The notes below the pieces were generated by a model that made no database searches, was not told the origin of the DNA, and was given only the letters and a program-made list of their open reading frames with translations. DNA of 64,000 nt from Flammeovirga kamogawensis (GTDB taxonomy: Bacteria > Bacteroidota > Bacteroidia > Cytophagales > Flammeovirgaceae): positions 1,054,001-1,118,000 of the forward strand of contig NZ_CP076129.1 of NCBI RefSeq assembly GCF_018736065.1. Direction: 5' to 3'. Position numbers and translations under genes: made by a program. This document shows, one piece after another, positions 5,008-39,443 of the stretch. Within the stretch, counting starts at the first letter, position 1. Each line of letters begins with the position of its first letter.

Positions 5008-5033
5008 CGATTTTGGCAAAATTGCTAAAACCG
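5008..5033. repeat. 26-bp palindrome, copy 1 (candidate parS-like site)
   Basis: Left arm CGATTTTGGCAA, 2-bp spacer AA, right arm TTGCTAAAACCG. It matches three other sites at 27.1, 27.4 and 39.4 kb with consensus CGRTTTTGGYAA, 2 nt, TTGCYAAAAYCG. It sits in the divergent gap between alkB and the 5151 gene, so it is not a terminator. Confidence 0.75.
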
Positions 5034-5150
5034 TATTCTATAAAGATGTATATCTTGAATTATTCTAATAACAAAACCTAAAATAAAAGCCCTATAGAAT
5101 GTAATTTAGTAAATTACTAAGACTTAAGTAAACCTATATAATTGTATGAA

Positions 5151-6344
5151 ATGGAAAAAATAGACCTCCTGCCTTTCGAAACATCATTAGCAATAATGGA
5201 AGAGCCTGGTGTTACATCAATTACTTTCTTTGAAGGAAATATAAAATTAATTGGCAAGAAAATTAAAGATCGTTTTCAAGAAATTGTTAACGCAAACCCA
5301 TGGTTGAGTGGTAAGATTATAAAACAGAATAAAGAAATTAGTTTACAGTTTTCAAACTCACCAGAAATAGAACAACTTTATCATCCAGATATTGACACTG
5401 TTTCCGTTTCTGATGAAATGAGTTACGAACAAATTACTCAAGCTGTAAAAAGTTGTACAGTACAAAGAGGAAGACACCTAATAAATAAACTACATCCATT
5501 AACGCTTTTATCTATTCTTCCTGATAAAGAAAATCCATCAGAAAAATTTGCAGTAATACTGTCTATCTCACATGTAATTGCTGATGGTTTTACATACTAT
5601 AGTATTCTAAATATGTTTTCAGATGATATAAAAATTGAGTCTTTAAATGTGAATAGGAAATTAGATGTTAGTAAGCAGATTCCAAACTATATTGGTAAAG
5701 ATCTTTATAAATTTACAAACTCTATTTCTTTAGGAATAAACTCTTTAAAAGGGCTAGTTTTTGGTAAAAAAGTACAATGCTTTGCTTATTATGTTGATAC
5801 TCAAAAAATAAATGCAATAAAAGCTGATTTACCCTCTAATATTCCCTTTGTTTCTACTAATGATATTTTACAAAGTAGTATTTCTAAAGCTGTTGATGCT
5901 CGGCTAAGTATGATGGCTATTAATTTTAGAAACAGAATTGAAGGAATTAATAATAACGATGCAGGAAATTATGAAGCAGGGTTATTTTTTGATAAAGTAA
6001 ATTATTATAAACCTCAAAATATTAGATCAGCATTAAACTCTGGTGTACCTATGAAAACGACATCAAGCAGTATACCAAGTTTTTTTGAAACATTAGGTGA
6101 CAAGTTTACACAAATTACAAATTGGGCTAGTTTTGCAAGTGGTATTGTTATTGACGGTACAAAGCAAAAAATTCATATCCCAATTTATGATTTAAGCTTG
6201 ATTCCTTTTGATTGTGCAATAATCTTTAAACCTGTTGCAGATAAAACTGCGGTGATGTTCCTTTCTAAAACTCTATCAAAAAATCACATATTAGCACAAT
6301 GTGAAGTAGAAGAACCTGTTGACAATGTGATTTTCAAAGATTAA
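5151..6344 (+). CDS. Condensation-fold acyltransferase-like protein
   Basis: A 397-residue protein carrying HVIADG (residues 141-146), the HxxxDG catalytic motif of chloramphenicol-acetyltransferase-fold enzymes such as wax-ester synthases, alcohol acetyltransferases and condensation domains. The N-terminal LLPFETSLAIMEEPG and the segment ANPWLSGKI fit the substrate tunnel layout of this fold. The DFGWG-type second motif is not obvious. The frame opens with a TTG at 5142, but ATG at 5151 is a better start. It overlaps the convergent DUF523 gene by 4 bp. Acyl donor and acceptor unknown. Confidence 0.65.
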   Translation: MEKIDLLPFETSLAIMEEPGVTSITFFEGNIKLIGKKIKDRFQEIVNANPWLSGKIIKQNKEISLQFSNSPEIEQLYHPDIDTVSVSDEMSYEQITQAVKSCTVQRGRHLINKLHPLTLLSILPDKENPSEKFAVILSISHVIADGFTYYSILNMFSDDIKIESLNVNRKLDVSKQIPNYIGKDLYKFTNSISLGINSLKGLVFGKKVQCFAYYVDTQKINAIKADLPSNIPFVSTNDILQSSISKAVDARLSMMAINFRNRIEGINNNDAGNYEAGLFFDKVNYYKPQNIRSALNSGVPMKTTSSSIPSFFETLGDKFTQITNWASFASGIVIDGTKQKIHIPIYDLSLIPFDCAIIFKPVADKTAVMFLSKTLSKNHILAQCEVEEPVDNVIFKD

Positions 6345-6784
6345 TCAGTCTCTTTACCTTCCCAATTTTGATCTGTATATATTTCAAATCCATTGTCTTC
6401 TAATAAAGACGATGTAATACCATTTCCATCAATTAAATTACCTGAAAAAGATCCATCGTATATTTTACCATAACCACAAGATGGGCTTCGTGATTGTAAA
6501 ATTGCTTTTTTGATATTTGCATTTTTTGCAATTTCTAATGTTCTCTGAGCACCTTTATTAAAAGCAATAGTTTGATCTGTCCCAAATTTATCTTTTACTT
6601 CATCACCAACAATCTCTACAGGATTTCTAGGTGTAGGTAAACCTCCTAATTCTTCAGGACACACAGGAATTGCTTTCCCATCTATTACAAGTTGCTCAAT
6701 CTTACTGATATGAGTACAACCGCCATTGTACCTACAATTTATGCCTACTAAACAAGCACTAACTATATATTCAGGCTTTGTCAT
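6341..6784 (-). CDS. DUF523 family protein
   Basis: A 147-residue DUF523 protein with the family hallmarks SACLVGINCRYNGG at the N-terminus, PVCPEELGGLPTPRNP in the middle and SRSPSCGYGKIYDGSF towards the end. The four conserved cysteines (CLVGINC, VCPEE, PSCG) suggest a metal or Fe-S site. The biochemical role is not established for this short form; longer homologues carry a DUF1722 domain. The start lies 1 bp beyond the stop of truA, so the two are probably one transcript. Confidence 0.85.
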   Translation of the reverse strand: MTKPEYIVSACLVGINCRYNGGCTHISKIEQLVIDGKAIPVCPEELGGLPTPRNPVEIVGDEVKDKFGTDQTIAFNKGAQRTLEIAKNANIKKAILQSRSPSCGYGKIYDGSFSGNLIDGNGITSSLLEDNGFEIYTDQNWEGKETD

Positions 6785-6785
6785 A

Positions 6786-7577
6786 TTATTGTAATCCTAA
6801 TTTTAATCCTGCAAGTAAACCGCTTTTTGATTCTATTTTTAAATATGGATATTCTACTTTAGATAAGAATAAACCCGATGGATACGCTGGTGGGGTATCA
6901 AGTATTGACACTTTATTTGTAAAAACTTTTTCAAATTCTTCTAAAGAAATTTTACCTTTTCCAACGTACAATAAGTTCGTAACAATTAAACGAATCATTC
7001 CTCTTAAAAAGCGATTTGCTGTAATTGTAAACCTCAACCTTTTGGCTTTCTCATCTACAAAAACCTCTGAATGTGTAACGTTACAACGGGTATGTTTATA
7101 AAGGTGAGGCTTTTTGCAAACACCAATAAAATCATCAAAAGAAGTTAGCATTTTTGCAGCCTTCTTAACAACATCTATGTCTAAAGCTGTAACATCGTAA
7201 TTGGAACTAAATTTAGAATTTATGATGTCTTTTTCTGTGTGAATAAAGTAATCGTAAGTACGCATTGTTGCATCAAAACGAACATGCTGATTATCGTTCA
7301 TAGGAATGACATCATACACTACAATAGCTTCTGGAAGGTTTTTATTGAGTCTAAATTTCAAATCAAAATTTAGAGGCTCTTCTAAGTTGATATGAATAAA
7401 ATACTGACTAGAATGTACACCAGCATCTGTTCTTCCACATCCGAATACAGTAATATCAGTTTTAAAAATTGATTTCAATCTATCTTCTATAGTTCCTTGT
7501 ACAGAAACTACATTTGGTTGGAATTGCCATCCTCGATAGTTTGTACCATCGTAGGCTAAATGTATAAAATAGCGCAT
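6786..7577 (-). CDS. truA: tRNA pseudouridine(38-40) synthase TruA
   Basis: A 263-residue enzyme that isomerises uridines 38-40 in the tRNA anticodon arm. The catalytic aspartate is Asp51 in GCGRTDAGVHSSQYF, and the N-terminal YDGTNYRGWQFQP is diagnostic of TruA. Length is normal. ATG start. The next minus-strand gene (DUF523) begins 1 bp after the stop, which indicates a two-gene operon. Confidence 0.95.
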   Translation of the reverse strand: MRYFIHLAYDGTNYRGWQFQPNVVSVQGTIEDRLKSIFKTDITVFGCGRTDAGVHSSQYFIHINLEEPLNFDLKFRLNKNLPEAIVVYDVIPMNDNQHVRFDATMRTYDYFIHTEKDIINSKFSSNYDVTALDIDVVKKAAKMLTSFDDFIGVCKKPHLYKHTRCNVTHSEVFVDEKAKRLRFTITANRFLRGMIRLIVTNLLYVGKGKISLEEFEKVFTNKVSILDTPPAYPSGLFLSKVEYPYLKIESKSGLLAGLKLGLQ

Positions 7578-7719
7578 GTTAAGAGTTTATATCAATTACT
7601 TAGAGTCAGCGAAAGTAAAGTTTTTAAATGATTAAACACTGATAAAATCGTTAAGAAACGTATATTATTTAGTATCAAGAGAGAATTAGCTTATATATTG
7701 CATTGTTAATTCAAATAAT

Positions 7720-8205
7720 ATGAGAAATTTTTTAATCAAACTTATAGACTTCTTTTATCCACCTTTTAAAAAAGTAATGCCCTTACAAACATTTAGATAT
7801 GCTGTATGTGGGGGAGGGAACCTTGCTTTGGATATTATTCTCTATTTTTTGGTATTTCACTTTGTAGTTGATGAACACAACCTTGATCTTGGTTTTATTG
7901 ATATAAGTGGGCACATAGCAGCTTTATTTATTGTATTCCCAATTACTTTTACCACAGGTTTTTTGCTCCAGAAATATATTACTTTTCAACTATCAGATGT
8001 TAAAAGTCATATTCAGTTATTTAGGTACGCTCAGGTTAGTGCCGGTGCTATAATACTTAATTATTTACTTATGAAGTTATTTGTTGATGTATTGCATATC
8101 TACCCCACGCCATCTAAGATGCTAACCACAGTTGTTTCTGTAATTTTCAGCTACATATCACAGAGTAGATATACATTTAAGGTAAATGCAAAGAAAAAAA
8201 AGTGA
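7720..8205 (+). CDS. GtrA-family integral membrane protein
   Basis: A 161-residue protein with four predicted membrane segments and GtrA-family features: FRYAVCGGGNLALDIILYF at the start, FTTGFLLQKYITF in the middle and SVIFSYISQSRYTF at the end. GtrA-like proteins are linked to flipping or transfer of undecaprenyl- or polyprenyl-phosphate-linked sugars for cell-surface glycans. No glycosyltransferase neighbour is present, so the partner is unknown. The stop lies 4 bp from the convergent corA stop. Confidence 0.8.
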   Translation: MRNFLIKLIDFFYPPFKKVMPLQTFRYAVCGGGNLALDIILYFLVFHFVVDEHNLDLGFIDISGHIAALFIVFPITFTTGFLLQKYITFQLSDVKSHIQLFRYAQVSAGAIILNYLLMKLFVDVLHIYPTPSKMLTTVVSVIFSYISQSRYTFKVNAKKKK

Positions 8206-8209
8206 GTGT

Positions 8210-9271
8210 TTACAACCACTTCTTTCTCCTAAAATAATTCATCATAAAAATGGTTATAACAAGCATAGTTACCCACATAAAGTGATAAGAATACTCATAA
8301 TGTAACTCGGGTATGTTATCGAAGTTTGTTCCATAAATACCTGCAATAAAAGTAAGAGGAATAAAGATTACTGAAAACATCGTTAAAGTCATCATCACAT
8401 TATTTAGTTTAGAACTAACAGTAGTGTGATAAATATTTAACAAGTCTGATAGAATCTCTCTATAACTATCAGAAATCTCATTTACCTGTTTTATATTATT
8501 TAAGAGCTCTTTAAAATGTAATTCATTTTCTTCAGAAACATATTCTAAATCCTTTTTGGTAAGTGTTAGAATAATTTCTACTGCAGGTTTTATATTTCTT
8601 CGGATGGTGTTTAACTCCCTTTTATAAAAATTAATAAGGTCTAATGTAGAACTCTTTGGGTTGGCTAATAGAATGTCTTCAAGATCTTCAATCTTATCGC
8701 CTAATACACTTAATAAATAAATATAATTATCAATTACTAAATCTAAAATTGTAAACAGTAAATAGTCTGCACCAGCATTTACAAGGCTCTTTTTACTTTT
8801 TTCTAATCGTTTAATTATAGGTGTAAAAAAGTCTGTAGGTTGCTCTTCAAAAGTAAATACAGCATTATTAGTTGTTACAATACTAAGGTTATTAATTTCA
8901 ACTCGTTTCTCTTCCGCATCATAATGTAATAACTTTATAGAAACAAAAAGAGATCTTTCATGTTCCTGAATTTTTGGGCGAGCTTCTGTATTTAAAACAT
9001 CTGAAAGAACAATAGGATTAATATCCATAGACTTTAATTCTTCTATGATCTTAGTATCATGAAGTCCAATAACATTCACCCACGTAACAGATCTATTATC
9101 TATAAATGGTTCTATTTCATGAACTCTTTTAAGCTCTTTTTTAATGAAACTAGTAGGTGTATAATCAAATAGACTTATAGTTACATGTTCACTTTTACGT
9201 TCTCCTCTAAAAACTATTTCATCAGGCGAAAGCCCTACATTTTCATCTTTATTATATAGCGGTTCTGACAT
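8210..9271 (-). CDS. corA: CorA-family divalent cation transporter
   Basis: A 353-residue CorA protein with a long soluble N-terminal domain, a stalk helix (about residues 190-280) and two C-terminal membrane helices ending in the basic tail RRKKWL. The pore signature is YGTNF (residues 313-317) followed by DNIPEL, so the canonical GMN motif is GTN here. CorA forms pentamers transporting Mg2+ (or Co2+/Ni2+); the Met-to-Thr change may alter selectivity, though I cannot say how common it is among relatives. ATG start; 6 bp downstream of the 9278 gene. Confidence 0.9.
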   Translation of the reverse strand: MSEPLYNKDENVGLSPDEIVFRGERKSEHVTISLFDYTPTSFIKKELKRVHEIEPFIDNRSVTWVNVIGLHDTKIIEELKSMDINPIVLSDVLNTEARPKIQEHERSLFVSIKLLHYDAEEKRVEINNLSIVTTNNAVFTFEEQPTDFFTPIIKRLEKSKKSLVNAGADYLLFTILDLVIDNYIYLLSVLGDKIEDLEDILLANPKSSTLDLINFYKRELNTIRRNIKPAVEIILTLTKKDLEYVSEENELHFKELLNNIKQVNEISDSYREILSDLLNIYHTTVSSKLNNVMMTLTMFSVIFIPLTFIAGIYGTNFDNIPELHYEYSYHFMWVTMLVITIFMMNYFRRKKWL

Positions 9272-20693: not shown

Positions 20694-20696
20694 TTC

Positions 20697-26978: not shown

Positions 26979-27103
26979 TTTTATATTAAAGTTTAATGTT
27001 AAACATTTTAATTTATAACGAATGTATTAACATTTTGGCTTAAAATAAAAACATATAATAACAATTACTTAAATGGTGTTTTATGCTATTGTATAAAAAT
27101 AGA

Positions 27104-27137
27104 AAACCGATTTTGGCAAAATTGCCAAAATCGGTTT
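27104..27137. repeat. 26-bp palindrome, copy 2, extended to 34 bp
   Basis: Perfect 16-bp arms (AAACCGATTTTGGCAA and complement) around a 2-bp spacer AA. It lies 31 bp beyond the stop of the 27168-27263 small gene and 126 bp upstream of the 26978 lipoprotein start. Shares the consensus of copies 1, 3 and 4. Confidence 0.85.
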
Positions 27138-27167
27138 CTTATATGTTTAAGTATTGTATTTATAATA

Positions 27168-27263
27168 TTAGTCTCTAAAAATTTTATACATTTCACTAGC
27201 AGAAACAACGCACATTAATGTAATAAATATTGTAAGAACTGAAGGGAGTAAAATTGATTCCAT
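27168..27263 (-). CDS. Small single-span membrane peptide (31 aa)
   Basis: A short frame encoding 31 residues, beginning MESILLPSVLTIFITLM and ending SEMYKIFRD. One hydrophobic span covers about residues 4-22. It lies between two copies of the 26-bp palindrome (27104 and 27362), about 100 bp from the nearer. No homologue is recognised and no strong ribosome binding site is visible, as is usual in Bacteroidetes. Could be a real small membrane protein or a chance frame. Confidence 0.4.
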   Translation of the reverse strand: MESILLPSVLTIFITLMCVVSASEMYKIFRD

Positions 27264-27361
27264 GAGAGTATTTTTTAAAGAGTTTAATTTTTTGCTTTAT
27301 TATTAAAGCTTACATATACTAATATCAATTCATTAAAAAAGTCACCCTTTTATTTTACTTA

Positions 27362-27395
27362 TTTTCGGTTTTGGCAATTTTGCCAAAACCGAAAA
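27362..27395. repeat. 26-bp palindrome, copy 3, extended to 34 bp
   Basis: Perfect 16-bp arms (TTTTCGGTTTTGGCAA and complement) around a 2-bp spacer TT. The end abuts the terminator of the 27446 small gene. The perfect symmetry and the match to copies at 5.0, 27.1 and 39.4 kb point to binding of a dimeric protein. Confidence 0.85.
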
Positions 27396-27421
27396 AAGGC
27401 CAACATTTCTGTTGACCTTTT
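27392..27421 (-). terminator. Intrinsic terminator after the 27446 small gene
   Basis: Stem AAAAGG-CAACA/TGTTG-CCTTTT with one mismatch pair and a 4-bp loop, followed on the minus strand by a T run that abuts the palindrome at 27362-27395. Confidence 0.6.
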
Positions 27422-27445
27422 AATATATATTTATTTAAATAATTC

Positions 27446-27571
27446 TTATTTTAAACCAAGTACTTCCTTAATTTCTTCTTTAGAAACTCCTTGTCTAATT
27501 AAATCTCCTAAGCTAACGCCTTTCTTGAACTTCAAACGACGTTTTGTGTTTTTATCTTCAAATTGAAACAT
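27446..27571 (-). CDS. Small conserved-looking protein (41 aa)
   Basis: A 41-residue frame starting MFQFEDKNTKRRLKFKKG, with a second half GDLIRQGVSKEEIKEVLGLK that reads as a small helix-turn-helix-like or hinge motif. Basic N-terminal half (KRRLKFKKG). It has its own terminator, which supports a real gene. Homology not recognised; a DNA- or nucleoid-binding role is a guess. Confidence 0.55.
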   Translation of the reverse strand: MFQFEDKNTKRRLKFKKGVSLGDLIRQGVSKEEIKEVLGLK

Positions 27572-27665: not shown

Positions 27666-28478
27666 TTAAATATTAAAATCTATATGATAATGTTCATCAT
27701 GCATCTCATTCACTTCTGAAGGTAATTTATTTGCGAAATAGACTCCCCTACTTAATAGTTTCCGTCCTGATGGAGTAGAAAATAACTTCTCTTTAAATTC
27801 AATTTTAATAATTACCTGCTTAATACTAATTCCATTTTTATTACAAGCTATATCCAGAGCCAATATATGGTCCGCTAATTTTTCAAAATCATTCGTTACG
27901 TTTTTTGGTATAAATAACCTTCCAATAAATTTTGAAACTGAAGGACTTAAAAAATTTAATAAGGAATAGTTCTGTTTATAGTTACCATAATTATCTGTCT
28001 CTAAAAAATAATGAAAAAGTCCCCATTGATCTAAATATGTATAGGGTTTCCCCTCTTTCTGTTTTGGGATCATAAAATCTATACTCAAGCCATTTTCATG
28101 ACTTCTATGTAAATATAAATTTCCTCCTGAATGATCACTACATTCCATATAATAGTATAAACACTCGCTATTAATTGTACTATTCAAAGATTGATAACTT
28201 TCTAAAACACTACGATAAACACTATTATGTACATAAGCATTATCCATTAAATAATAACTAATTCCACTAAAACTACCATAGTTTTCTCCTCTATATGGAA
28301 GAAGCCAACCTCTCTCTAAAGTACCATTAAAACGTGTTCCATGTGAAACACTTTGCCCCTTATTAGTATGAAAAAGCTCTCTAAAAGAAAGAAAACCAAT
28401 AGATATTATAATTATAATACAACTTGTAATTGAAAAATATTTTACCAGATTTAGAAATTTCCTCAACAATAATTTCAT
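27666..28478 (-). CDS. MepA-like murein endopeptidase (M74/LAS fold)
   Basis: A 270-residue protein with one N-terminal membrane helix (about 14-32) and features of penicillin-insensitive murein endopeptidases: VSHGTRFNGTLERGWLLPYRGENY, the zinc-site HRSHENGLSIDF (His127, Asp134) and the C-terminal HDEHYHIDF (His263, His265). These enzymes cut D-Ala-mDAP cross-links in peptidoglycan. Membrane-anchored rather than freely periplasmic. Follows a second peptidase gene (28643-29191) on the same strand. Confidence 0.75.
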   Translation of the reverse strand: MKLLLRKFLNLVKYFSITSCIIIIISIGFLSFRELFHTNKGQSVSHGTRFNGTLERGWLLPYRGENYGSFSGISYYLMDNAYVHNSVYRSVLESYQSLNSTINSECLYYYMECSDHSGGNLYLHRSHENGLSIDFMIPKQKEGKPYTYLDQWGLFHYFLETDNYGNYKQNYSLLNFLSPSVSKFIGRLFIPKNVTNDFEKLADHILALDIACNKNGISIKQVIIKIEFKEKLFSTPSGRKLLSRGVYFANKLPSEVNEMHDEHYHIDFNI

Positions 28479-29252: not shown

Positions 29253-30629
29253 TTATTTACTCATTCGTGAGAAGCTTTCTCGCATAATCTGTAATTCCTG
29301 ATGCTCCTCTACCATATTGTAATGGCTTTCATGAATGCTTTTTATCTTTTTGTCAGCAGTAATACTAAGCACACCTATTGTAAGGTTTTGCTTTTGTACC
29401 TGAAGCACCGCCTCATCTTGTAGTTTTTCATGTACAACAACATAAAACTTATGACAAAAGCGTGATAACTCCTCTAAAGAATGAAGGTTTTCTAAGTCTG
29501 CAATTGTAGAAAAAATCTGATAACCAACAATGGCTGGAGCATATTCTTTCTCATTCAATTTTACAAGCTGTACAACGTCTATATTCTTACTCTGGCGTAC
29601 TTGCTGATTCTGCTCAATATATCTAGCAGAAAAATCATTAAAGTGAGTATATCGAAGCCCTGAAAGGTTTAAAGTATCAAATGCTACATCTGGATGACGA
29701 AATGCTAAAGCTACTCTACTAATTGTAGCAATTGAATCTTTATTATTTAAAAGCAATTGAATCTGACGTGGAGTAAGTTCTTTCTCTACTACTTTTTTAG
29801 ACTTAGAACTATTAATTTTCGATTCCTTTTCTTTATTTCGAATATCAGACCACGCTTTATGTATTGAAGTGACACCATCCATCACAGATGAAAGTAGATC
29901 ATTTGATCCCTTTTCTATCACTTTCTTCATTTTAGTGACATTTTTCGTGGAAACTCCAGCAATTTTAGCTGCTTCTTCAGCTCTATTAATTTTTCCTGAA
30001 GAACCTATGTTTAAATCACTTTTAAAAGCATTTATATCTTGTTGTTCCACAGAAACAACTTCCTTTCCAGTTGTTTTTTGTATTGTTGCATTTGTTTTTT
30101 CAGCAGCTCCTTTATTGAAAGCTTCAACTTGTTTCTTTTTACGTTCTTTTGCTTCTATGCTTAAAAACTCTGTTAACTGTAACGCAATTCTGATTTTCTC
30201 TGCATCCCCAATGTTTCTTCTTCCTAATTGGTTACGCAGCATCCAAATACGTACATCGTTATAAGATTCAAATTTCATCTCTTTAGAAGGGATAAAATCT
30301 AAATTCAACTTAATCGCTGCTTCGCATCTATGGTGGCCATCCACAACAGTATGTACAACCCTAGCACCAGATTTATCTCTTAAAGTGTGTGTCCAATACA
30401 AAATTGGCTCTCTTACACCTTCTTCTTTAATTGATACTTCAAAATTAGCTGCTTCATCGTCGTTTTGTTTACGAATAAGTTCCCTAAATTCTGGTTCAAT
30501 ATGAAAAGCACCTGGAGATTTATAATCTATTTGCGTTAATTTTTCTTGTGATTTCTTTTCACGAAGGGTTGTTTTACCCTCTTTTATCCTTTTTTCCTCT
30601 TTTTGTTTAAACTTATCTAGGTTCAGCAT
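29253..30629 (-). CDS. ParB-like partition protein 1 with C-terminal extension
   Basis: A 458-residue ParB/Spo0J-type protein. The N-terminal nuclease-like/CTPase domain shows VDGHHRCEAAI (97-106) and NQLGRRNIGDAEKIRIA. A central helix-turn-helix (about 205-240, AAKIAGVSTKNVTKMKKV) follows. Residues about 320-430 are an extra domain (DVVQLV, GYQIFS, FCHKFYVVV, LTIGVLSI) that looks like a PD-(D/E)XK/MmcB fold without the catalytic Glu-x-Lys. Its start is 39 bp from the stop of parA1, so the pair is an operon. It should bind a centromere site; see the 26-bp palindrome. Confidence 0.75.
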   Translation of the reverse strand: MLNLDKFKQKEEKRIKEGKTTLREKKSQEKLTQIDYKSPGAFHIEPEFRELIRKQNDDEAANFEVSIKEEGVREPILYWTHTLRDKSGARVVHTVVDGHHRCEAAIKLNLDFIPSKEMKFESYNDVRIWMLRNQLGRRNIGDAEKIRIALQLTEFLSIEAKERKKKQVEAFNKGAAEKTNATIQKTTGKEVVSVEQQDINAFKSDLNIGSSGKINRAEEAAKIAGVSTKNVTKMKKVIEKGSNDLLSSVMDGVTSIHKAWSDIRNKEKESKINSSKSKKVVEKELTPRQIQLLLNNKDSIATISRVALAFRHPDVAFDTLNLSGLRYTHFNDFSARYIEQNQQVRQSKNIDVVQLVKLNEKEYAPAIVGYQIFSTIADLENLHSLEELSRFCHKFYVVVHEKLQDEAVLQVQKQNLTIGVLSITADKKIKSIHESHYNMVEEHQELQIMRESFSRMSK

Positions 30630-30668: not shown

Positions 30669-31499
30669 TTAATCAATAATAGGAAGTAATTCATTTACTA
30701 TTTCCCTTACTTCTTTAGTGATTGAAGTATTGCTAAAATTAGTATCTCTTTGGTACTGAATTGCATCTGGTAAGAACGAATCCATCAATTTTAATCCCAT
30801 ATAACCATCTAATTCGAATGGCATTTTAGATTCTTTTACCGTTCTATTCACTCTATTTCTAATACCAATAATCTTTGTTGGTAAATCTAAAGAGTCTCTT
30901 ACATCTGCTATGTTAGAAATACTCGATATAGTAGGTCCTAGAGCCGTCTCGTTCAATGTTATCGGTACAACAACATCAGAGTTAGCGATAATGCTTGTAA
31001 GCAAGTCTGTAACGGCTACATACCCCGCAGTATCTACTAATATGTAATCATACTTATACTGACTTTCTTCTATTAGCTTTCTATATTTTTCAGAAACTGC
31101 AATAGAATTGGAATCAAACCCAATTACTTCAATGTTTTCATGCAATCCGTTTTCAGAATACATTACCAATGTTTGCTGAGGATCAGTATCTATACATAAA
31201 ACCTTTATTTCAGGGTATTCTGTAACAATACCTACAGCTATTTGACGTAATAATGAGGATTTTGTATTACCTCCTTTAGAATTAATTAAAGAAATTACCT
31301 TAGAAGGTGCACCTTTAACGATATAATCTAGGGGAACTTTGAATACGTCAGCTATTTTGGATAAACCAGAGTAAGGAATTTCTACTTTTCCCTTCTCCCA
31401 TTTAATTAAACCTTGCACAGAAATATCAATTAGCTGAGCTAACTCCTTCTGTTGCATATTATTTTTCTTACGAAGTTTTACTATGTTATCTCCGATCAT
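30669..31499 (-). CDS. ParA-like ATPase 1 with N-terminal XRE helix-turn-helix
   Basis: A 276-residue protein. Residues about 2-60 are an XRE-type helix-turn-helix (LRKKNNMQQKELAQLIDISVQGLIKWEKG). A ParA/MinD ATPase domain follows: INSKGGNTKSSLL at about 73-85, CIDTDPQQ and YILVDTAG. In the deviant Walker A the usual KGGxGK is KGGNTK (75-80), lacking the second Gly. An ATG at 31499 is preferred over the GTG at 31502. It is divergent from rep across the iteron region, so it may autoregulate through its N-terminal domain. Confidence 0.8.
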   Translation of the reverse strand: MIGDNIVKLRKKNNMQQKELAQLIDISVQGLIKWEKGKVEIPYSGLSKIADVFKVPLDYIVKGAPSKVISLINSKGGNTKSSLLRQIAVGIVTEYPEIKVLCIDTDPQQTLVMYSENGLHENIEVIGFDSNSIAVSEKYRKLIEESQYKYDYILVDTAGYVAVTDLLTSIIANSDVVVPITLNETALGPTISSISNIADVRDSLDLPTKIIGIRNRVNRTVKESKMPFELDGYMGLKLMDSFLPDAIQYQRDTNFSNTSITKEVREIVNELLPIID

Positions 31500-31602
31500 C
31501 ACTTCGGTTAATTATATTATTGTATAGTTACAAACCTACAATTTTTCTATTAAAGGCGCAATAATCTTAGTTTGATTATACTAAAGATTAATTAAAAAAT
31601 TA

Positions 31603-31621
31603 AAATATGTATCATAATTCC
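31603..31621 (+). repeat. 19-bp direct repeat, copy 1
   Basis: AAATATGTATCATAATTCC, identical at 32359-32377. Both contain TGTATCAT, a motif also found at 32531 and 32678, and as the complement TGATACAT downstream of rep. It is distinct from the main iteron. Confidence 0.6.
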
Positions 31622-31630
31622 TTTAAAAAT

Positions 31631-32922
31631 ACGGTATAACTATACATTTTTTTAATTTACCGCGCATTCTAAAAAGTATTTATGTAATTAAATAAGCTTA
31701 TCTGTATAGATATACCGTATATAAATGTTCTATAATTACTATATATGTATAGAATTACCGCGCAATTTTAGTTCAATTTATTAAAGTATGTATAGATATA
31801 CCATATATATTTTTCTAAATAGTAAAATCTTAAGGTACATCTATACATACTTCAACTTTAAAATAAAAAATAGTAAAAAATTAAATATAAAATTGTCTTA
31901 ATTATAAGGGTTGCTTATATATAGTTATTTATATTGTTTTTATTATAGGGTGGCGTAACATACTGATAATCATATACTAAAGCACTAACTAGATGTATAG
32001 ATTACCCGAAGATAGATGTATAGATGTTCCATATTAAGATGTATAGGTATACCGATAAGCTATGTATGAGAATTCTGAGTGTATAAATAGAATACTCTTT
32101 TATGTATCTAAAATGGCCTATATGTATAGTTTTACCGTCTATTTATGTATAGATATACCATAGTATGTATTCTAATAATTATATATGAATGGAAATGACA
32201 TACATTTAATAGAATTTACTGTATACAGTGTATACAATGGGTCGCTAATCTCTTTTTCATTTAGAATTATAGAATATTTGGTCAAATTGATTGATAGTTA
32301 CTACTGCATAGCTGGTATTTTTATGTATTAATTGACTGAATTAAGTATTGAAAGGGATAAATATGTATCATAATTCCAATATTCATCATTAAGTAACCCA
32401 TTTAACAGCCTTTATATGTACTACAAGCTCTACTTATGTATAGATGTACCGTACTTTATAGAGTAAATAGTTACAGGTATGGTATATCTATACATAAATA
32501 GGGTATTTAATTCTTCTCAAACTGTAAAACTGTATCATGTTCTATTAATATGTATAGATAACCCGTATAATTTAAAGATTATTACTTCTTATTTTATATT
32601 TAAGGCATATTAGAAAGACTTTGATGTTTATAAAGCCCATTAATTAGTTTGAACTAATGTATTCTATCACTTAAATCTGTATCATTTTTATTAATTATGT
32701 ATAGATGTACCGTGAAATGAGCTTATTTATAGAATAGATGTATAGATATACCATAACTTTTGGTAACTGATGAAAATAGTTCTTTTTAATGTATATAGGT
32801 TCTTAAATATGTATAGATATACCGTACTAAAATGAAATTATGTACAATTTACCCGCCAATTATTTGTATTTATGTATAGATATACCGATATAGTGACTGC
32901 TTAATACGGTAAAGCTATACAT
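31631..32922. repeat. Iteron array, 18 copies of ATGTATAGATATACCGT type
   Basis: Eighteen strong 17-bp iterons. Plus strand at 31702, 31745, 31788, 31993, 32016, 32039, 32122, 32145, 32436, 32550, 32697, 32738, 32809 and 32872; minus strand at 31631, 31832, 32479 and 32906. The core ATGTATAGATATACCGT varies mainly at positions 9-14. Spacing is exactly 23 bp in 31993/32016/32039 and 32122/32145, and 43 bp in 31702/31745/31788. Two weaker copies are at 32788 and 32840. Typical Rep_3 iteron plasmids have far fewer. Confidence 0.9.
32359..32377 (+). repeat. 19-bp direct repeat, copy 2
   Basis: Identical to 31603-31621, at a distance of 756 bp, inside the iteron-bearing region. Confidence 0.6.
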
Positions 32923-32959
32923 ATATATTAATTTCCGAACGTAATATTGGTTTTTGTCG

Positions 32960-34150
32960 ATGGACATTTTAAATAAAATTCGAACAAGTAGTAATAAAGT
33001 AAAGAGAAGTAACCGATTTATTAAGGCGAAGCAAAAGAAACCCCTTCCCTTAGTATCTCAGAAGCTACTCCTATTTGCCTTTACATTAAATGATTTAACA
33101 GTAGAGGATGAAATCGAATTTAAAGTCTCCGAATTTTTAGGTCGACATCCAGGAGGAAAAGATTTAAAACAACTGGATTTTGGTTGTGATGCTTTATCGA
33201 GTGCAAAAATAACACTTGGAGAGGGAGATCATGATTCTAAAACATTTGATAGAGAGTATATTCCACTTTTCAGTAAAATTAAGTTAGACAAAACGTCTAT
33301 AAAGTTTCAGTTTAATGGAAACTTTAAGAACATCTTATCACCCAGTTCTAATTATACACAATACCTGTATTCTAGTGTACGCCACATGCGTTCTCCTCAT
33401 GCAGTAAGAATGTATGATTTACTCTCTCAGGGAGTTGGCAAATACAATTCTAGAAAGATATCTGTAGAGGAACTTAAATCTATATTAGGTCTTTCAGAAT
33501 CAAAATCTTATAAAAGTTTTGCAGCTTTTAATAGATCAATTTTACAGAAGTGTTTAAAAGATATTAATGAGAATACAGATTTAGAAGTTAATCTCGAATT
33601 AATAAAAACTGGTAGAAGATGTACACATTTAGAGTTCTTCTTTAAGAAAAAAGAAAAAGAACAACCTAAAACAATAGAAATTGGACAAACAGCCAATCAA
33701 CCTGCAAATAATACAGCTCAGGAGCCTCAACAAAATAGCTTACAACAGAAAATGAAGATGCTCCAATCTTTAGGTTTTTCTAGAGAGGAGATTTTAAGAG
33801 AATTATTAAAAACTGATGTAGAAGTTGGAGGTAACGAACAAGAAGATACAATAGATGTTGATCCTGTAACAGTAACTGAACAACCAACACAACAGACTGT
33901 AACCACTCCTAGGACAGCTTCACAAGGTTCTTTAGACTTCGATTTTCAAGAAAAAGTAAATAAACTCCATTTAAGATTAAATGAGATTGGTTTAACTGCA
34001 GATATTGTTTCAATTGCTATTAAGAAGTACCAGTCTGATCCTAATTGGAAAATATGGCCAGAATTGAATAACGTGAAGATGGCAATGAGAGATGGGGCTA
34101 GTTACCCAAATAAGCATACACTTAAGAAATGGATTATTGATCAGAAATAA
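32960..34150 (+). CDS. Rep_3-family (RepB-type) replication initiator
   Basis: A 396-residue initiator with two winged-helix domains: LVSQKLLLFAFTLNDL and SPHAVRMYDLLSQGVGKY, then ISVEELKSILGL, YKSFAAFNRSILQKCLKDINENTDLEV and RRCTHLEFFF, the classic end of the Rep_3 fold. A Gln/Thr-rich linker (about 230-315) leads to an extra C-terminal helical segment of about 75 residues (KVNKLHLRLNEIGLT, then MRDGASYPNKHTLKKW). The frame starts at a TTG (32954), but ATG at 32960 is preferred. Iterons lie just upstream, ending 38 bp before the ATG. It should bind them to open the origin. Confidence 0.88.
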   Translation: MDILNKIRTSSNKVKRSNRFIKAKQKKPLPLVSQKLLLFAFTLNDLTVEDEIEFKVSEFLGRHPGGKDLKQLDFGCDALSSAKITLGEGDHDSKTFDREYIPLFSKIKLDKTSIKFQFNGNFKNILSPSSNYTQYLYSSVRHMRSPHAVRMYDLLSQGVGKYNSRKISVEELKSILGLSESKSYKSFAAFNRSILQKCLKDINENTDLEVNLELIKTGRRCTHLEFFFKKKEKEQPKTIEIGQTANQPANNTAQEPQQNSLQQKMKMLQSLGFSREEILRELLKTDVEVGGNEQEDTIDVDPVTVTEQPTQQTVTTPRTASQGSLDFDFQEKVNKLHLRLNEIGLTADIVSIAIKKYQSDPNWKIWPELNNVKMAMRDGASYPNKHTLKKWIIDQK

Positions 34151-34169
34151 TTTATACATCTTATTAATC

Positions 34170-34209
34170 AAAAATGGGTAGTCTATACATAAATAGGCTA
34201 CCCATTTTT
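34170..34209 (+). terminator. Terminator of rep with an iteron copy in the stem-loop
   Basis: Stem AAAAATGGGTAG/CTACCCATTTTT. The reverse iteron copy at 34174-34190 (complement of ATGTATAGACTACCCAT) forms part of the left arm and loop, so a Rep-binding site overlaps the terminator of its own gene. Confidence 0.7.
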
Positions 34210-34441
34210 GTTTTATCTAATTATGTATAGGTTTCCCGTAAATAGAATGTTATGCTGTAGAAATATGCTAAATATGTATTGAACAGCTGTAGAATGTATC
34301 TTTTTAAATACAATTTATTTGAAATGTGATACATTTTACGGTACACCTATACATATTTAAGTAAACTGATACATTATACTGGATTTTAATACATAGTATC
34401 GAAATCTCATACATTTTTATTGAATTTGATACATAAAAAAA

Positions 34442-34469
34442 CCTTCTAATCATTTTTTAGATTAGAAGG
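34442..34469 (-). terminator. Intrinsic terminator after the 34490-34777 gene
   Basis: Perfect 10-bp stem (CCTTCTAATC) with an 8-bp loop, T run on the minus strand. Confidence 0.8.
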
Positions 34470-34489
34470 CTTAGAAATTTATAATTTTA

Positions 34490-34777
34490 TTACGCTACCT
34501 GCGGAAATACAATATTTTTTAAAGTATGTACGTCGTAACGTTTCCAAGATTTAATTTTACTACCATCTTTCAGAAACTCCATCTTCAAACAAAAGTCATC
34601 TACAAGCTCATCGTAATAGGCTTCAATGATTTTGCATTGTAGTTTTTCTTCAATAATGTTCACTCTATCTAATATAGAGTCAATTTCTTTCATTGCTAGC
34701 TGCATACCTTTTTGTAAAAGTTTGAGTACATCAGCAAAGATAGGTGATTCTTTAATATGTATAACGAAAAATTTCAT
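34490..34777 (-). CDS. Small uncharacterised protein, 95 aa
   Basis: A 95-residue, mostly helical protein (ADVLKLLQKGMQLAMKEIDSILDRVNIIEEKL, then a short beta part LVDDFCLKMEFLKDGSKIKSWKRYDV). It has its own terminator, and a second terminator separates it from the upstream gene, so it is a single-gene unit. No family recognised. Found between rep and the plasmid-type membrane protein, which suggests a replicon-maintenance accessory, but that is position only. Confidence 0.5.
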   Translation of the reverse strand: MKFFVIHIKESPIFADVLKLLQKGMQLAMKEIDSILDRVNIIEEKLQCKIIEAYYDELVDDFCLKMEFLKDGSKIKSWKRYDVHTLKNIVFPQVA

Positions 34778-34792
34778 TTATCCTCAATAATG

Positions 34793-34822
34793 AAAAAGCT
34801 CATCACATAATGATGAGCTTTT
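34793..34822 (-). terminator. Intrinsic terminator after the 34947-35735 gene
   Basis: Stem AAAAGCTCATCA/TGATGAGCTTTT with a 5-bp loop, T run on the minus strand. Confidence 0.8.
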
Positions 34823-34946
34823 ACTTAATCTTATATTACCCTTTAATAATGCGGACGATTATTAATTAATCAATCCATGAATACAGAACTATCCATTCAT
34901 TCATATTGTTTAAAAATTTATAAATTATTTTTTAATAACGGTATAT

Positions 34947-35735
34947 CTATACATAGTTAGGTTTATATGTACTTAAAAGTTGATTTGCCTGACGGACATT
35001 AAGACGAAGTAATTTCATTAGTACTTTATGATCTGTAATTTCTCCAGTTTGAATTTTTAAAATTATCTCTTCTTCAAAATTAGTTGTAGTAGTAACTGGA
35101 ACTTCTGATGAATAATGGATAGCTGTATTTTTATGCGGAACAGTGCTAATTGTATTTGTAACTACTTTATTATTAGCAGTTTTTGACGTATTTGTTAGCG
35201 TACTTGCTATAAAGGCTACACAGAATAATAAAATAGAAAAACACCTAAAGTCATTAGCAAGTTTTTTTGCTTCATTACTTTTTATATTGATAATTGTGAG
35301 TATCCTTTCCTTTTCTTGTTGTAATGTTTCTAATTGTTGAGATGCCGTTCTATATTGTTCTACATTCCTCCAATTTCTTTTATTGGCATTTTGATGTATA
35401 ATTTCCATTGTTTCATCTATCTGTGAATCAATTTTTTCTGTGGTTGGAATATCTGCAACATTTAAAGTATGTATAGATTGCCCGTTCCATTCTGCATAAA
35501 AAACAAAACCCATTAAAATAATTGCTATGAGAATAGATTGAGAAACTGATTTAGTTTCTTTATAATGCTTTATTGTTTGAAAGGTATAATGATGCCCAAG
35601 TGAAACTATAAATACTGCTATAAAAGCAGCAACATATACATTGCTCACTTCTGAAAGAAAAAGAAACGATACATAAGAGCTATACATTAATGAAACTAGA
35701 ATTAATGAATAGTCTGCAATTTTAGAAATTGACAT
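34947..35735 (-). CDS. Membrane protein with coiled coil, replicon accessory
   Basis: A 262-residue protein with hydrophobic segments at about 10-28, 32-48, 67-83 and 165-183. A coiled coil lies at about 98-160 (IDETMEIIHQNANKRNWRNVEQY, QQLETLQQEKERIL). The short C-terminal helical part (EEIILKIQTGEITDHKVLMKLLRLNVRQANQLLSTY) looks like a winged or helix-turn-helix motif. I do not recognise the family. Iterons lie inside the gene (35469-35485) and at its stop. Plausibly a mobilisation or membrane-tethering protein of the replicon, by position only. Confidence 0.5.
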   Translation of the reverse strand: MSISKIADYSLILVSLMYSSYVSFLFLSEVSNVYVAAFIAVFIVSLGHHYTFQTIKHYKETKSVSQSILIAIILMGFVFYAEWNGQSIHTLNVADIPTTEKIDSQIDETMEIIHQNANKRNWRNVEQYRTASQQLETLQQEKERILTIINIKSNEAKKLANDFRCFSILLFCVAFIASTLTNTSKTANNKVVTNTISTVPHKNTAIHYSSEVPVTTTTNFEEEIILKIQTGEITDHKVLMKLLRLNVRQANQLLSTYKPNYV

Positions 35736-35768
35736 ATTAAAGGTGTGTAGATTTTAGTGATATGAACA

Positions 35769-35785
35769 GTGGTCAGATTGACCAC
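35769..35785. repeat. GTGGTCA palindrome, copy 1
   Basis: GTGGTCA, 3-bp spacer GAT, TGACCAC, followed by CGATAT. Located 33 bp upstream of the 35735 gene start. Same pattern as 35974-35994, so a repeated operator- or centromere-like site. Confidence 0.6.
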
Positions 35786-35973: not shown

Positions 35974-35994
35974 CGGTGGTCAAACTGACCACCG
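35974..35994. repeat. GTGGTCA palindrome, copy 2
   Basis: Nine-bp arms CGGTGGTCA and TGACCACCG around a 3-bp spacer AAC, followed by ATATAA. Located 20 bp beyond the parB2 stop. No T run follows on the minus strand, so a terminator is unlikely. Confidence 0.6.
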
Positions 35995-36014
35995 ATATAA
36001 TAATGATAAAAACG

Positions 36015-36848
36015 TTATTTTTTTAATTGATTCACTACATTTTCTAGATAAGAAATGAGTTCTTGTTTTTCATCAGTGCCTAAATTTTTATTCCAAGATT
36101 TCACCTGTGAATCTATCTTAGAAATATATGAACCTAAATAATTTATATCTCTTTCTCTAGGTTGGATAACTTCTTGATTAGTGGATGCCTCTCCTTTTAG
36201 AAAAGCTACTAAATCTAAGATTTCATCCAATTGTTTAGCTGCTTCTAGCATTCTTGCTCTGGTGTATGTAGACTCTCCTGTTAAATACATAACTCTTTCA
36301 ATAGTAGGTAATGCATCAACAACACTAGCAATAGATGCATCTCTACGAATTGTTTTCTCACCTATTCCATGTAAATCAGCTAATTTTTGAGCTAATTTTC
36401 CACCACTACCAGCTCTACCCAAGTTTTCTGTAGATTTATGCATATTGTAATGCAAACCACGGTAATAAGAAGTTTCGTTACTATTTAAATTACGTCTACC
36501 GAGCTGGAGTTGAATCATATATTCTTTTACTTCTTCTATAGAAGCATAATATTTGTATTCAACTTTAAATTCGATATCATGTTTTTTGCAAATCTCAAAC
36601 CGATGATGACCGTCTATAATATACAGTTCATCATCATTTTTTTTCCAAATTTTTAAAGGGTCATGACACCCTTCTTCTTGTACAGAACGTTCTAACTGAG
36701 CAAATTCTTCAGGTTTTAGCTTTCTTATATAATGCTCTAATTCCGGAAGAATTGAAATAGTATCTCTTACTTCAGCTTTTAAACTTTTGCCAATCGTTGA
36801 TTGAGTATTTGATGGCATCTGAAAATTAAAACTCTTACTTTTTGCCAT
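36015..36848 (-). CDS. ParB-like partition protein 2
   Basis: A 277-residue ParB-type protein: DGHHRFEI (79-86) and QLQLGRRNLNSNETSYYRG (about 113-131) form the N-terminal CTP-binding core. A helix-turn-helix lies at about 150-175 (KLADLHGIGEKTIRRDASI), and the C-terminal helices (about 250-277) could dimerise. Its start is 2 bp after the parA2 stop, so the pair is an operon. Compared with ParB1 it is shorter and lacks the extension. Two GTGGTCA palindromes downstream are candidate binding sites. Confidence 0.82.
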   Translation of the reverse strand: MAKSKSFNFQMPSNTQSTIGKSLKAEVRDTISILPELEHYIRKLKPEEFAQLERSVQEEGCHDPLKIWKKNDDELYIIDGHHRFEICKKHDIEFKVEYKYYASIEEVKEYMIQLQLGRRNLNSNETSYYRGLHYNMHKSTENLGRAGSGGKLAQKLADLHGIGEKTIRRDASIASVVDALPTIERVMYLTGESTYTRARMLEAAKQLDEILDLVAFLKGEASTNQEVIQPRERDINYLGSYISKIDSQVKSWNKNLGTDEKQELISYLENVVNQLKK

Positions 36849-36850
36849 AA

Positions 36851-37792
36851 TTAATCTAGTATTTCGATTGCCAAGTTTAAGTAATCATCTGCCCCTTTAG
36901 AATCAGGAGCGTATTCGAAAATATCTTTTTGTGCACCCGTAGATTCTGCAATTGCGATAGAATCATGAATAAATGTATCAAAAACATTGTAGTTGGTTAC
37001 CTGATCACGGAGTCCCTTCATAAAATCTCTGTGTAGAACAGTTTTAGGTTTGATAGATGTAAACAGAAAACCAAGAATCTGAATATTTGGATTTAAGTCG
37101 CGAACATCATTTATTAAATTAAACATATTCGAGATACCATTCATACTAAAAGGTTCAGCATCTAAAGGAATAATAATATCTGTAGAAGCAACCAAAGAAC
37201 CCGCTGTTAGAATACTTAAAGATGGAGGACAATCAATAAGAACAAAATCATAGTTCTCAGCAATTGGTCCAATTACATTTTTAATGCGTTTGTATCCTCC
37301 AATTGTTTGTTTTTGTAATTCTAAAGTAGCTGCATCTAAATTAATAGTAGAAGGTAATAAGTGTAGATTCTCACTATGTTTATGAAGAATTTTTTCCCAA
37401 TCGTCCGTTTTTCCTAATACAAGATCAACAAATTCTGGTTGAGGGTTAGTACACCCAAGATATTGAGAGAGGTTACCTTGAGGATCAAGATCTACTAACA
37501 ATACTTTTTTACCTTTAAGTTCTAGTGCTTTTCCAAGATTACAAGCTGTGGTTGTTTTTCCAACTCCACCTTTGTTGTTTATAATACTGATAATTTTAGC
37601 ATCGGATTCATCTTCCAAACCAAATTTACTTAATACCTCTGCGAGTCTTTCTATGTATTCTTGTTTAAAAGAATAGTTGCCATTAAGTGCTTTATGGAGA
37701 GAGTTACTAGGTAAGCCTGCCTGTCTTTCTAAGGCAGAGATCTTAAGCATATCATTTTTCTTGATAAACTTCAGTATTTTTTCTTGGTTCAT
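36851..37792 (-). CDS. ParA-like partition ATPase 2 with N-terminal helix-turn-helix
   Basis: A 313-residue ParA. Residues about 5-60 form a helix-turn-helix (ISALERQAGLPSNSLHKALNGNYSF). The ATPase shows the canonical deviant Walker A KGGVGKT (74-80), then LLVDLDPQGNLSQYLG and FVLIDCPPSLSILTAG. The N-terminal DNA-binding part suggests self-repression, as in plasmid ParAs of the P1/F type. Cotranscribed with parB2. ATG start. Confidence 0.88.
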   Translation of the reverse strand: MNQEKILKFIKKNDMLKISALERQAGLPSNSLHKALNGNYSFKQEYIERLAEVLSKFGLEDESDAKIISIINNKGGVGKTTTACNLGKALELKGKKVLLVDLDPQGNLSQYLGCTNPQPEFVDLVLGKTDDWEKILHKHSENLHLLPSTINLDAATLELQKQTIGGYKRIKNVIGPIAENYDFVLIDCPPSLSILTAGSLVASTDIIIPLDAEPFSMNGISNMFNLINDVRDLNPNIQILGFLFTSIKPKTVLHRDFMKGLRDQVTNYNVFDTFIHDSIAIAESTGAQKDIFEYAPDSKGADDYLNLAIEILD

Positions 37793-38617
37793 TTTCTAAA
37801 AAGTATAATTTTTAACTTTACGCTCTGCAATTAAGTAAAAAAATCATCTTTTATAAAATATTTAACCTTAAAAAGTAACTATTTCTACTATTTAAGTTGA
37901 AAAATATACTTGTAGTTAAAATTCTAAGTAGATATTCATACTTTTTGATGGAATTGAGATAAATTTCATTTTAAATCAAGAAACTATTTAACACAAAATA
38001 CCCTTCTTAAATTTTCAAGAAGGGTATCTTCAATTAAAATACTATGTTATTCAAATAATAGATTATTTAGTTTTTAGGTAAATTATGATGATCTCATTTT
38101 TATTTTTTATTCAATATCCATTCAATTATTTCATGTCCTTACTAGATAATACGCTATCCTTAGCGGAGGGTTATTTTGCCTTTGTACATGATTTTTCAGA
38201 ATTCAATTAGATAGTAGAATTTGCAAATAACTGACTTATAAACTTACATTATTATTCTAAGTAGAATTGATATCATTTATTAAGTGAGAGAGATTTGGTT
38301 AATAAATAGATGTACTTATTATAATAAAAGTACATCAACAGAAAAATTGAAGAGATAAACAAAAACTAAAAAATTGAGAAGTAAATAATAATTATAACGT
38401 AGCGTATAGTATCGTGTACACGATATAATTTTTAAAGTGAATATTTAGTTTTATTTATAAATATTGTATGTTTTACCCTTATTGTAATAACGTTTTCTAT
38501 ATAATTAAGGCGTATATTTGTGCCAATGATAAACACAAAACCAGTTTTTATTAATATCTACTGTTAAATAAATAATTTTTAATAACGATATCTGACATCT
38601 ATTAAATATCTACTAAC
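37793..38617. other. Gene-poor region upstream of parA2
   Basis: About 820 bp with an 11-bp-stem hairpin at 37998-38027 (ATACCCTTCTT, then the complement), without a clear T run, and no convincing gene. One 41-residue plus-strand frame at 38085-38210 is not supported by any motif. It probably contains the parA2 promoter and the promoter of the 38618 gene near 38493-38520. Confidence 0.45.
38493..38520 (+). promoter_or_regulatory. Possible promoter of the 38618 gene
   Basis: TATATTTG at 38513-38520 matches the Bacteroidetes -7 consensus TANNTTTG, preceded by TTTT at 38493-38496 (16-bp spacing, shorter than usual). Confidence 0.3.
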
Positions 38618-39319
38618 ATGGCAACAAAAAGGAACTACAATTATATCCTCGAAGAGGAGAAATTGTCTTTAGACTCATACCGTATTTTTGGAAAATACAT
38701 TATTTATGCGGATGGGTATATCAATCAAGAATTGAAAAAACAAATCAATTACGCAGCAGTTACAGGTAAACCTTTCATAATTCATGAAAGAAAAAGTTAC
38801 TATTTAGGGAAGATTGTTCTTACCTTATTTAGAGGTAATAGCTCTAAGAAAAACTTTCTTTATTTAGATGGTAATCCTCAGAATAATAACATAAATAATT
38901 TGATGTGGGGTTTGGCTCCGGTAAATGCTCAGTTTAAAGAACGAGTAAGCGAATTACCAGATAGGTTAATGAGTGATAAAACCGTTTGTTACAAATTACC
39001 CTCTTTTCCGGGTACTTATATTGATAGAAAAGGAAGGTTTTATACCGTAGAAAAAGGTTACCGTTTAAAACTTTTGAAATCAAGACTTTTAGATGGAATC
39101 CCGAGTGCGTCTTATATAAGTATAGATAAAAAAGGAGCGACTATGTATACGCATATTTGTATGTTAGAAGCTTTTAAAGGAATTAAGTACGGTACAGCTA
39201 GAATAACATGGAAAGACGGTGATAAAACAAATGCTGCACTTTCTAACTTAGAAGTAGTAAAAACTAAATCAACTAAGAACCAAAATGAAATAAAAGAAGA
39301 GGATATAAGTATTGTTTAA
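38618..39319 (+). CDS. HNH/NUMOD-like DNA-binding protein
   Basis: A 233-residue protein with two copies of a NUMOD/HNH-like segment. LDGNPQNNNINNLMWG (about 83-98) resembles the metal/DNA-contact strand of HNH endonucleases, and WKDGDKTNAALSNLEVV (about 198-214) is a weaker second copy. An earlier part, FGKYIIYADGYINQ, resembles NUMOD4. A full catalytic HNH (His-Asn-His) set is not complete, so it may be a homing-type endonuclease relative or only DNA-binding. Single gene with its own terminator. Close to the parS-like site at 39418. Confidence 0.55.
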   Translation: MATKRNYNYILEEEKLSLDSYRIFGKYIIYADGYINQELKKQINYAAVTGKPFIIHERKSYYLGKIVLTLFRGNSSKKNFLYLDGNPQNNNINNLMWGLAPVNAQFKERVSELPDRLMSDKTVCYKLPSFPGTYIDRKGRFYTVEKGYRLKLLKSRLLDGIPSASYISIDKKGATMYTHICMLEAFKGIKYGTARITWKDGDKTNAALSNLEVVKTKSTKNQNEIKEEDISIV

Positions 39320-39342
39320 AACGTTTTAAATCATCTTCTCTT

Positions 39343-39375
39343 AAAGTCACTTTAATTCTGTTAAGGTGACTTTTT
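39343..39375 (+). terminator. Intrinsic terminator after the 38618 gene
   Basis: Stem built from AAAGTCAC and GTGACTTT with a T run (TTTTTATTT) on the plus strand. Confidence 0.75.
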
Positions 39376-39417
39376 ATTTATATCACTTTGATAATTAATA
39401 ATATATAAATTGAAATA

Positions 39418-39443
39418 CGGTTTTGGTAAATTTGCTAAAATCG
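39418..39443. repeat. 26-bp palindrome, copy 4 (candidate parS-like site)
   Basis: CGGTTTTGGTAA, 2-bp spacer, TTGCTAAAATCG. Matches the shared consensus in most positions and lies between two plus-strand genes. Confidence 0.75.

Follow-up and report, generated by a model that had tools for sequence, protein, structure and literature searches.

Secondary chromosomes such as that of Vibrio cholerae, with its ParB2/parS2 system, and the repABC replicons carry their own ParAB proteins together with their own centromere, and a protein of the ParB fold, KorB of plasmid RK2, has dispersed operator sites. KorB is named in PMC12704722. For ParB and Noc, a switch between parS and the Noc-binding site (NBS) has been tested experimentally, with specificity set by a few interface residues (Jalal 2020, PMC7383237). 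Flammeovirga has been described as a two-chromosome genus, and a ParA-ParB-parS system has been named on its chromosome II, with no site given in the passages concerned (PMC8653839). Here we describe a 26-base-pair (bp) palindrome in a stretch of 64,000 nucleotides of Flammeovirga kamogawensis, hereafter the window (C2:1054001-1118000 of genome G000), where C2 is chromosome II, of 1,613,666 bp, and one of the four contigs (C1 to C4) of a 6,968,008-bp genome. We propose, with a probability of about 0.86, that this palindrome is the parS of Flammeovirga chromosome II, that it belongs to a ParA1-ParB1-parS system in which it would be read by the helix-turn-helix (HTH) motifs of ParB1, and that it is distinct from the Spo0J parS.

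The pattern CGRTTTTGGYAANNTTGCYAAAAYCG is matched exactly at the four places where the original prediction had seen it. The first site (5008-5033, CGATTTTGGCAAAATTGCTAAAACCG) lies between the divergent genes 4310-4921 (minus strand) and 5142-6344 (plus strand), the second (core 27108-27133) and third (core 27366-27391) lie 2.1 and 1.9 kilobases (kb) 3' of parB1, and the fourth (39418-39443, CGGTTTTGGTAAATTTGCTAAAATCG) lies on the opposite side of the origin. The two central copies extend to perfect 16-bp arms around a 2-nucleotide spacer (27104-27137 and 27362-27395), again as predicted, and the arms of the two outer copies are imperfect. None of the four overlaps an open reading frame (ORF) of at least 70 amino acids (aa), in agreement with the earlier claim that no copy lies inside a gene, and 100 dinucleotide shuffles of the window gave no match to the pattern even with up to 3 mismatches. 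We place the replication origin of chromosome II at about 31.5-32.9 kb on the basis of the main iteron array (31521-32921, with a TGTATAG core of which 23 of the 35 copies in the window fall within 31400-35000), the adjoining Rep3-family replication initiator (32954-34150, plus strand; PF01051 and PF21205), and the minimum of the cumulative GC skew at about 32 kb (4-kb bins). Because the iterons coincide with this skew low, and both lie between the copies, the 26-bp sites can be said to surround the origin.

The exact pattern occurs nowhere else in the genome, so that all copies span 34 kb round the iteron origin; the chance that four random points of the genome would all fall within 34.4 kb is about 5e-7. 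Thus, the expectation that the sites occupy one arc and are absent elsewhere holds for exact matches, and an even spread over the replicons, which would have spoken against a centromere, is not seen. When up to 1 mismatch is allowed in the shorter 20-bp core TTTTGGNAANNTTNCCAAAA, there are seven matches, all of them on C2 and none on C1, C3 or C4. Three of the seven are far from the origin (C2:97311, 574314 and 1275595); the first is intergenic, the second falls within an ORF, and the third is terminator-like and flanked by convergent genes.

Like the parS of Spo0J/ParB (TGTTNCACGTGAAACA), the sequence is a palindrome present in several copies near the origin of a single replicon, beside a parA-parB pair. 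Unlike it, the 26-bp consensus is unrelated in sequence, as had been predicted, it measures 26 rather than 16 bp, and ParB1 falls outside Pfam ParB_N as scored. The locus likewise resembles the V. cholerae ParB2/parS2 and repABC systems in having its own ParAB and its own proposed centromere on a plasmid-derived chromosome, and differs from them in its ParB family and site, and in the presence of two ParAB pairs and two palindromes at one origin, beside a Rep3 initiator.

The arrangement is conserved throughout the genus. Matches with at most 5 mismatches in origin stretches of 30-104 kb from nine Flammeovirga genomes gave a set of 25 sites, with two to four per genome on one contig beside the same parA-parB pair in all nine, and with at least one site within 4 kb 3' of parB1 in each. 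All 25 are clear of ORFs of 70 aa or more, and none is farther than about 25 kb from parB1 and the origin even though much of the surrounding gene order differs between species. Between G000 and a second species (G006), the same four places are occupied, the site at 5008-5033 is identical at its syntenic place, and the sites agree at 100 of 104 letters compared with 505 of 645 in the flanks (P=1.7e-6). Across 390 genomes of the order, at least two sites with at most 1 mismatch were found in nine, exactly those with a full-length ParB1 match; none of the other 381 has two or more, and two have a single match each. This genus-wide clustering beside parB1 supports the earlier suggestion of a lineage-specific parS. 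Outside the origin stretches, weaker matches (1-3 mismatches) occur on various contigs, including one at G006:C2:586171 (1 mismatch) that was excluded from the 25 because it lies outside the origin stretch taken for that genome. A mobile or selfish palindromic repeat, resembling repetitive extragenic palindromic (REP) elements or miniature inverted-repeat transposable elements (MITEs), would also produce dispersed intergenic copies, but hardly the presence of two to four copies in every one of the nine genomes and the shared places described above, nor a 6.97-Mb genome with no exact copy beyond the 34-kb region; we consider this the most improbable of the readings and reject it on the origin-confined distribution. 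Between the two central sites and parB1 lies a 40-aa ORF (27452-27571, minus strand), with tblastn matches of 62-100% identity in six of the eight other genomes.

Which protein the site follows was examined by comparing the genes of the window, using tblastn, with the origin stretches of the eight other Flammeovirga genomes. ParA1 (30669-31502, minus strand; 277 aa) combines a Cro-type HTH with a ParA-like ATPase bearing a KGGNTKS Walker-A-like motif, matches PF13614 at 1.4e-10, and is 84-99% identical in all eight; ParB1 (29253-30629, minus strand; 458 aa), the most likely reader of the site, is 60-95% identical in all eight, and parA1 lies directly upstream of parB1 in all nine genomes. In contrast, the Rep3 initiator is 76-96% identical in four of the other genomes and only 38% identical in the remaining four. 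The second pair, ParA2 (36851-37792, minus strand; 313 aa; PF13614 at 1.1e-51) and ParB2 (36015-36848, minus strand; 277 aa), is similarly variable, with 98% and 94% identity in G006, 45% and 35-36% in four other genomes, 42% for ParA2 in G003, no tblastn match to ParA2 in the origin stretches of G005 and G010, and no relative of ParB2 other than ParB1 itself in a whole-genome search of these two. The palindrome is kept both where the initiator is diverged and in G005 and G010, and therefore follows the conserved ParA1-ParB1 pair, independently of Rep and of ParB2; a site bound by the initiator was rejected on these grounds.

ParB2 is nonetheless a ParB-like protein that also lies beside the origin, and the 26-bp palindrome could in principle belong to it. 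We regard this as very unlikely, since all of the genomes with a distant ParB2 (35-36% identity) or with none carry the 26-bp site, and ParB2 appears to have a word of its own, GTGGTCANNNTGACCAC, on the strength of which we reject the assignment. This word occurs twice just 3' of parB2, at 35769-35785 (GTGGTCAGATTGACCAC, outside the 26-bp family) and 35976-35992 (GTGGTCAAACTGACCAC). Its eight exact copies in 18 genomes of the family are divided between G000 (two), G006 (two) and G016:C2 (four). Each is no more than about 4 kb from ParB2 or, in G016:C2, from the closest ParB2 relative beyond the genus, a protein with 44% identity. We take the pair at parB2 as a candidate parS for ParAB2, the second system. 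Several other relatives of ParB2 have still other palindromes nearby.

A second line of evidence comes from relatives of ParB1 encoded outside chromosome II. The nearest are ParB-like, measure 273-430 aa and are found on other contigs, including two on named Flammeovirga plasmids. Of the 11 closest (a count that leaves out a ParB2-like protein in L139, 5958-6878), 10 have a related palindrome in or close to parB, and it is the strongest within 800 bp in nine; the more distant relatives L179 and L180 also have one, giving an assigned palindrome in 12 of the 32 ParB-like proteins surveyed. When the proteins are grouped by the first three residues of the ParB recognition helix, each group has its own palindrome: STK (the nine ParB1 proteins) with TTTTGGCAAATTTGCCAAAA, SRR (six loci) with GTGCAAATTTGCAC, SRA (two loci) with GCTAAATTTAGC, SGT (one locus) with GTGACAAATTTGTCAC, SSG (one locus) with TTGTCAAACTTGACAA, and PRT (two loci) with TATCCAAATGGATA; for SAR (one locus) no palindrome was found. 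Pairs with the same triplet agree in all of the inner 12 letters in 17 of 17 cases, against 0 of 61 for pairs whose triplets differ (13 entries, with cores entered by hand, ParB1 counted once as its consensus, L180 represented by its in-gene copy, and L137 omitted for want of a palindrome). In L180 a 3' copy differs from the in-gene copy in the middle, and of L130 and L131, two copies on one contig, the latter was dropped before the grouping. The palindrome of L140 and L199 was chosen because both share GCTAAATTTAGC; it is the second best within 800 bp in L199, and both L130 and L199 have a stronger palindrome elsewhere in the locus.

The SRR-type word, which was itself taken from SRR-type parB loci, occurs at only eight places in the 18 family genomes, and seven of these are in or beside an SRR-type parB. 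In five of the six SRR-type loci (parB genes L132 4097-4927, L133 9298-10122, L134 10475-11398, L136 9769-10683 and L138 4449-5327), and in both SRA-type loci (L140 and L199), the palindrome is part of the parB coding sequence itself and falls between the codons for the LGRRN stretch and those for the recognition helix. Within the F. kamogawensis genome, chromosome II and the 46-kb contig C4 each have their own palindrome letters; replicons sharing a cell appear to use different words. Taken together, the conserved arrangement and the joint variation of helix and site make ParB1 the likely reader of the 26-bp sites, and the six ParB-palindrome types may represent a natural series within one family. 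As with ParB and Noc, related DNA-binding proteins would read related palindromes; unlike that experimentally tested switch (PMC7383237), the Flammeovirga series is natural, comprises six types, and is deduced from sequence.

In ParB1, a ParB/Srx-like N-terminal part (VDGHHRCEAA ... NQLGRRN) is followed by an HTH-like stretch, GVSTKNVTKMKK, which is conserved among its relatives, and by a long variable C-terminal part; the DGHHRxxA and NQLGRRN stretches, as we read them, stand where ParBs have their cytidine triphosphate (CTP)-binding boxes. All five named relatives of ParB1 are from Flammeovirga, and some relatives match PF02195 below the family cut-off.

Several observations weigh against a ParB1-read parS. 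ParB1 has no match to a Pfam or NCBIfam family, and alone it matches no solved ParB structure; its match to a ParB-like family in PHROGs is weak (1.7e-8) and ranks behind a family of unknown function. A profile of 13 family members matches the ParB structure 6t1f in the PDB only weakly (1.4e-4), behind a hypothetical protein, free serine kinases and SbnI. Relatedness confounds the link between helix and site and inflates it, because close proteins share both. Moreover, L137 (G003:C7), among the 11 nearest relatives, has no evident palindrome, those of L140 and L199 are weak, and no palindrome could be assigned in 19 of the 21 more distant ParB-like proteins. The notion that GTGCAAATTTGCAC always marks an SRR-type parB was dropped, as the eighth copy (L201, G011:C50, 8997-9010) has long symmetric flanks on a 19-kb contig from which a parB match is absent. 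Finally, chromosome II has similar palindromes roughly 100-190 kb away from the origin that are not fully explained. They occupy two independent places (G000:C2:1275592, G006:C2:586171, G005:C12:1475146 and G010:C2:641888), the one in G006 being 167 kb away from the cluster of that genome, and a seventh look-alike, at G000:574311, is inside an ORF. An intergenic partial match with the same letters is also present at corresponding places far from the origin at G000:C2:97308 and G006:C2:1207179. None of these look-alikes was counted as a parS.

The look-alikes bear on whether the palindromes could be bidirectional transcription terminators or RNA hairpins, for which full RNA pairing together with a run of four T on the same strand served as the test. 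Two of six distal look-alikes in four genomes pass it (G000:1275592, which lies between convergent genes, and G005:1475146), as do three of the 25 origin sites, including that at 27104-27137 with its A- and T-rich ends. However, 22 of the 25 sites fail and so do not resemble intrinsic terminators, which also speaks against an occurrence mainly at gene 3' ends, and the site at 5008-5033 lies between divergent genes. Over the 25 sites, the half-site consensus CGNTTTTGGYAA is kept in each arm, while the middle two bases vary (AT in 13, TT in 7, AA in 4, AC in 1). Pair 3-24 includes the combinations A-C (3), T-T (1), A-A (3) and G-T (4) with no covariation, which is what half-sites read independently of each other should show; each half-site therefore keeps its own consensus, and RNA pairing is not kept. 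We reject a terminator function on the 22 failures and give it very little credence.

A more serious alternative, albeit still an unlikely one, is that ParB1 binds the sites mainly as a long-range transcription regulator, like KorB of RK2, and not as a partition adaptor. The position of the 5008 site between divergent genes would suit a regulator, as would the similar positions of some sites in G005, G006 and G010, the palindromes just 5' of parB in L139 and L141 (a possible operator position), and the unusual length of the C-terminal part of ParB1. Unlike those of KorB, however, the Flammeovirga sites cluster at the origin with ParA1, which accompanies ParB1 in all nine genomes; the sites stay close to parB1 and the origin despite changed gene order, and, judged by distance, none of the 25 is at the parAB1 promoter.

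We, therefore, favor partition as the function of the 26-bp sites, for which we postulate the following scheme. A ParB1 dimer would read the palindrome by its HTH motifs, each subunit contacting one half-site, and the two central bases would act as a free spacer. On the model of ParABS systems, we expect ParB1 to load at the sites and to spread from them in a nucleotide-driven manner, and ParA1 to move the ParB1-bound sites, which would pull apart the replicated origins of chromosome II. Because of the lack of family matches, of a solved-structure match for ParB1 alone, and of more than a weak profile match, CTP use and spreading by ParB1 are steps that we infer.

The kind of system is known. 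A literature search of titles and abstract openings, in which subscription journals were thinly covered, showed neither the 26-bp site nor the ParB subfamily or the helix-site series, and window positions 27008-27491 had no match when searched as DNA against PLSDB. With the proposed site, the centromere of a second chromosome in Bacteroidota becomes concrete and testable, and the relatives of ParB1 suggest a small natural code between ParB recognition-helix residues and the letters of parS on replicons within one cell, which bears on the avoidance of replicon incompatibility and on the transition from plasmid to chromosome.

In addition to these sites, the origin region of chromosome II often carries sequences resembling the Spo0J parS. 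Contig C1 of G000 encodes the only PF02195 ParB of the genome and has a single Spo0J-like site (1 mismatch). Seven of the nine Flammeovirga genomes have an intergenic sequence that differs from TGTTYCACGTGRAACA at 1 position and lies near the chromosome II origin, 8-44 kb from parB1; sequence simulated under a Markov model, six times as long as that searched, contained no match with at most 1 mismatch. In G003, G005 and G010 (G003:C3:281580, G005:C12:1570539 and G010:C2:500273) it is found at a single conserved position, 8-9 kb from parB1, and in G007, G008 and G009 (G007:C76:66026, G008:C116:82936 and G009:C138:78384) at a second place 31-44 kb away. The site of G004 (G004:C70:12110) is on a separate 13-kb contig, and so its position was deduced from its flanks, which match G007 at 83%. 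Such near-canonical sites could serve for loading of the main-chromosome ParB, and cross-talk between the chromosomes is, therefore, testable. It is tempting to speculate, tentatively and at clearly less than even odds, that up to three centromere codes coexist at the chromosome II origin (the ParB1 sites, a separate ParB2 site and, in most species, one near-canonical Spo0J parS), with the Spo0J site coupling the segregation of both chromosomes or the alignment of their arms via main-chromosome ParB/SMC loading, and the ParB1 helix-site code keeping the partition of each replicon private.

The only TGTTYCACGTGRAACA match in the window with at most 2 mismatches, 28335-28350 (TGTTCCATGTGAAACA, 1 mismatch), is inside the gene 27666-28478. 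This in-gene match is common to G000, G006, G005 and G010, and is the only one in the origin stretches of G000 and G006. Because it encodes a conserved SVS[HR]GTR stretch (SVSHGTR at the window position), it may be a coding coincidence.

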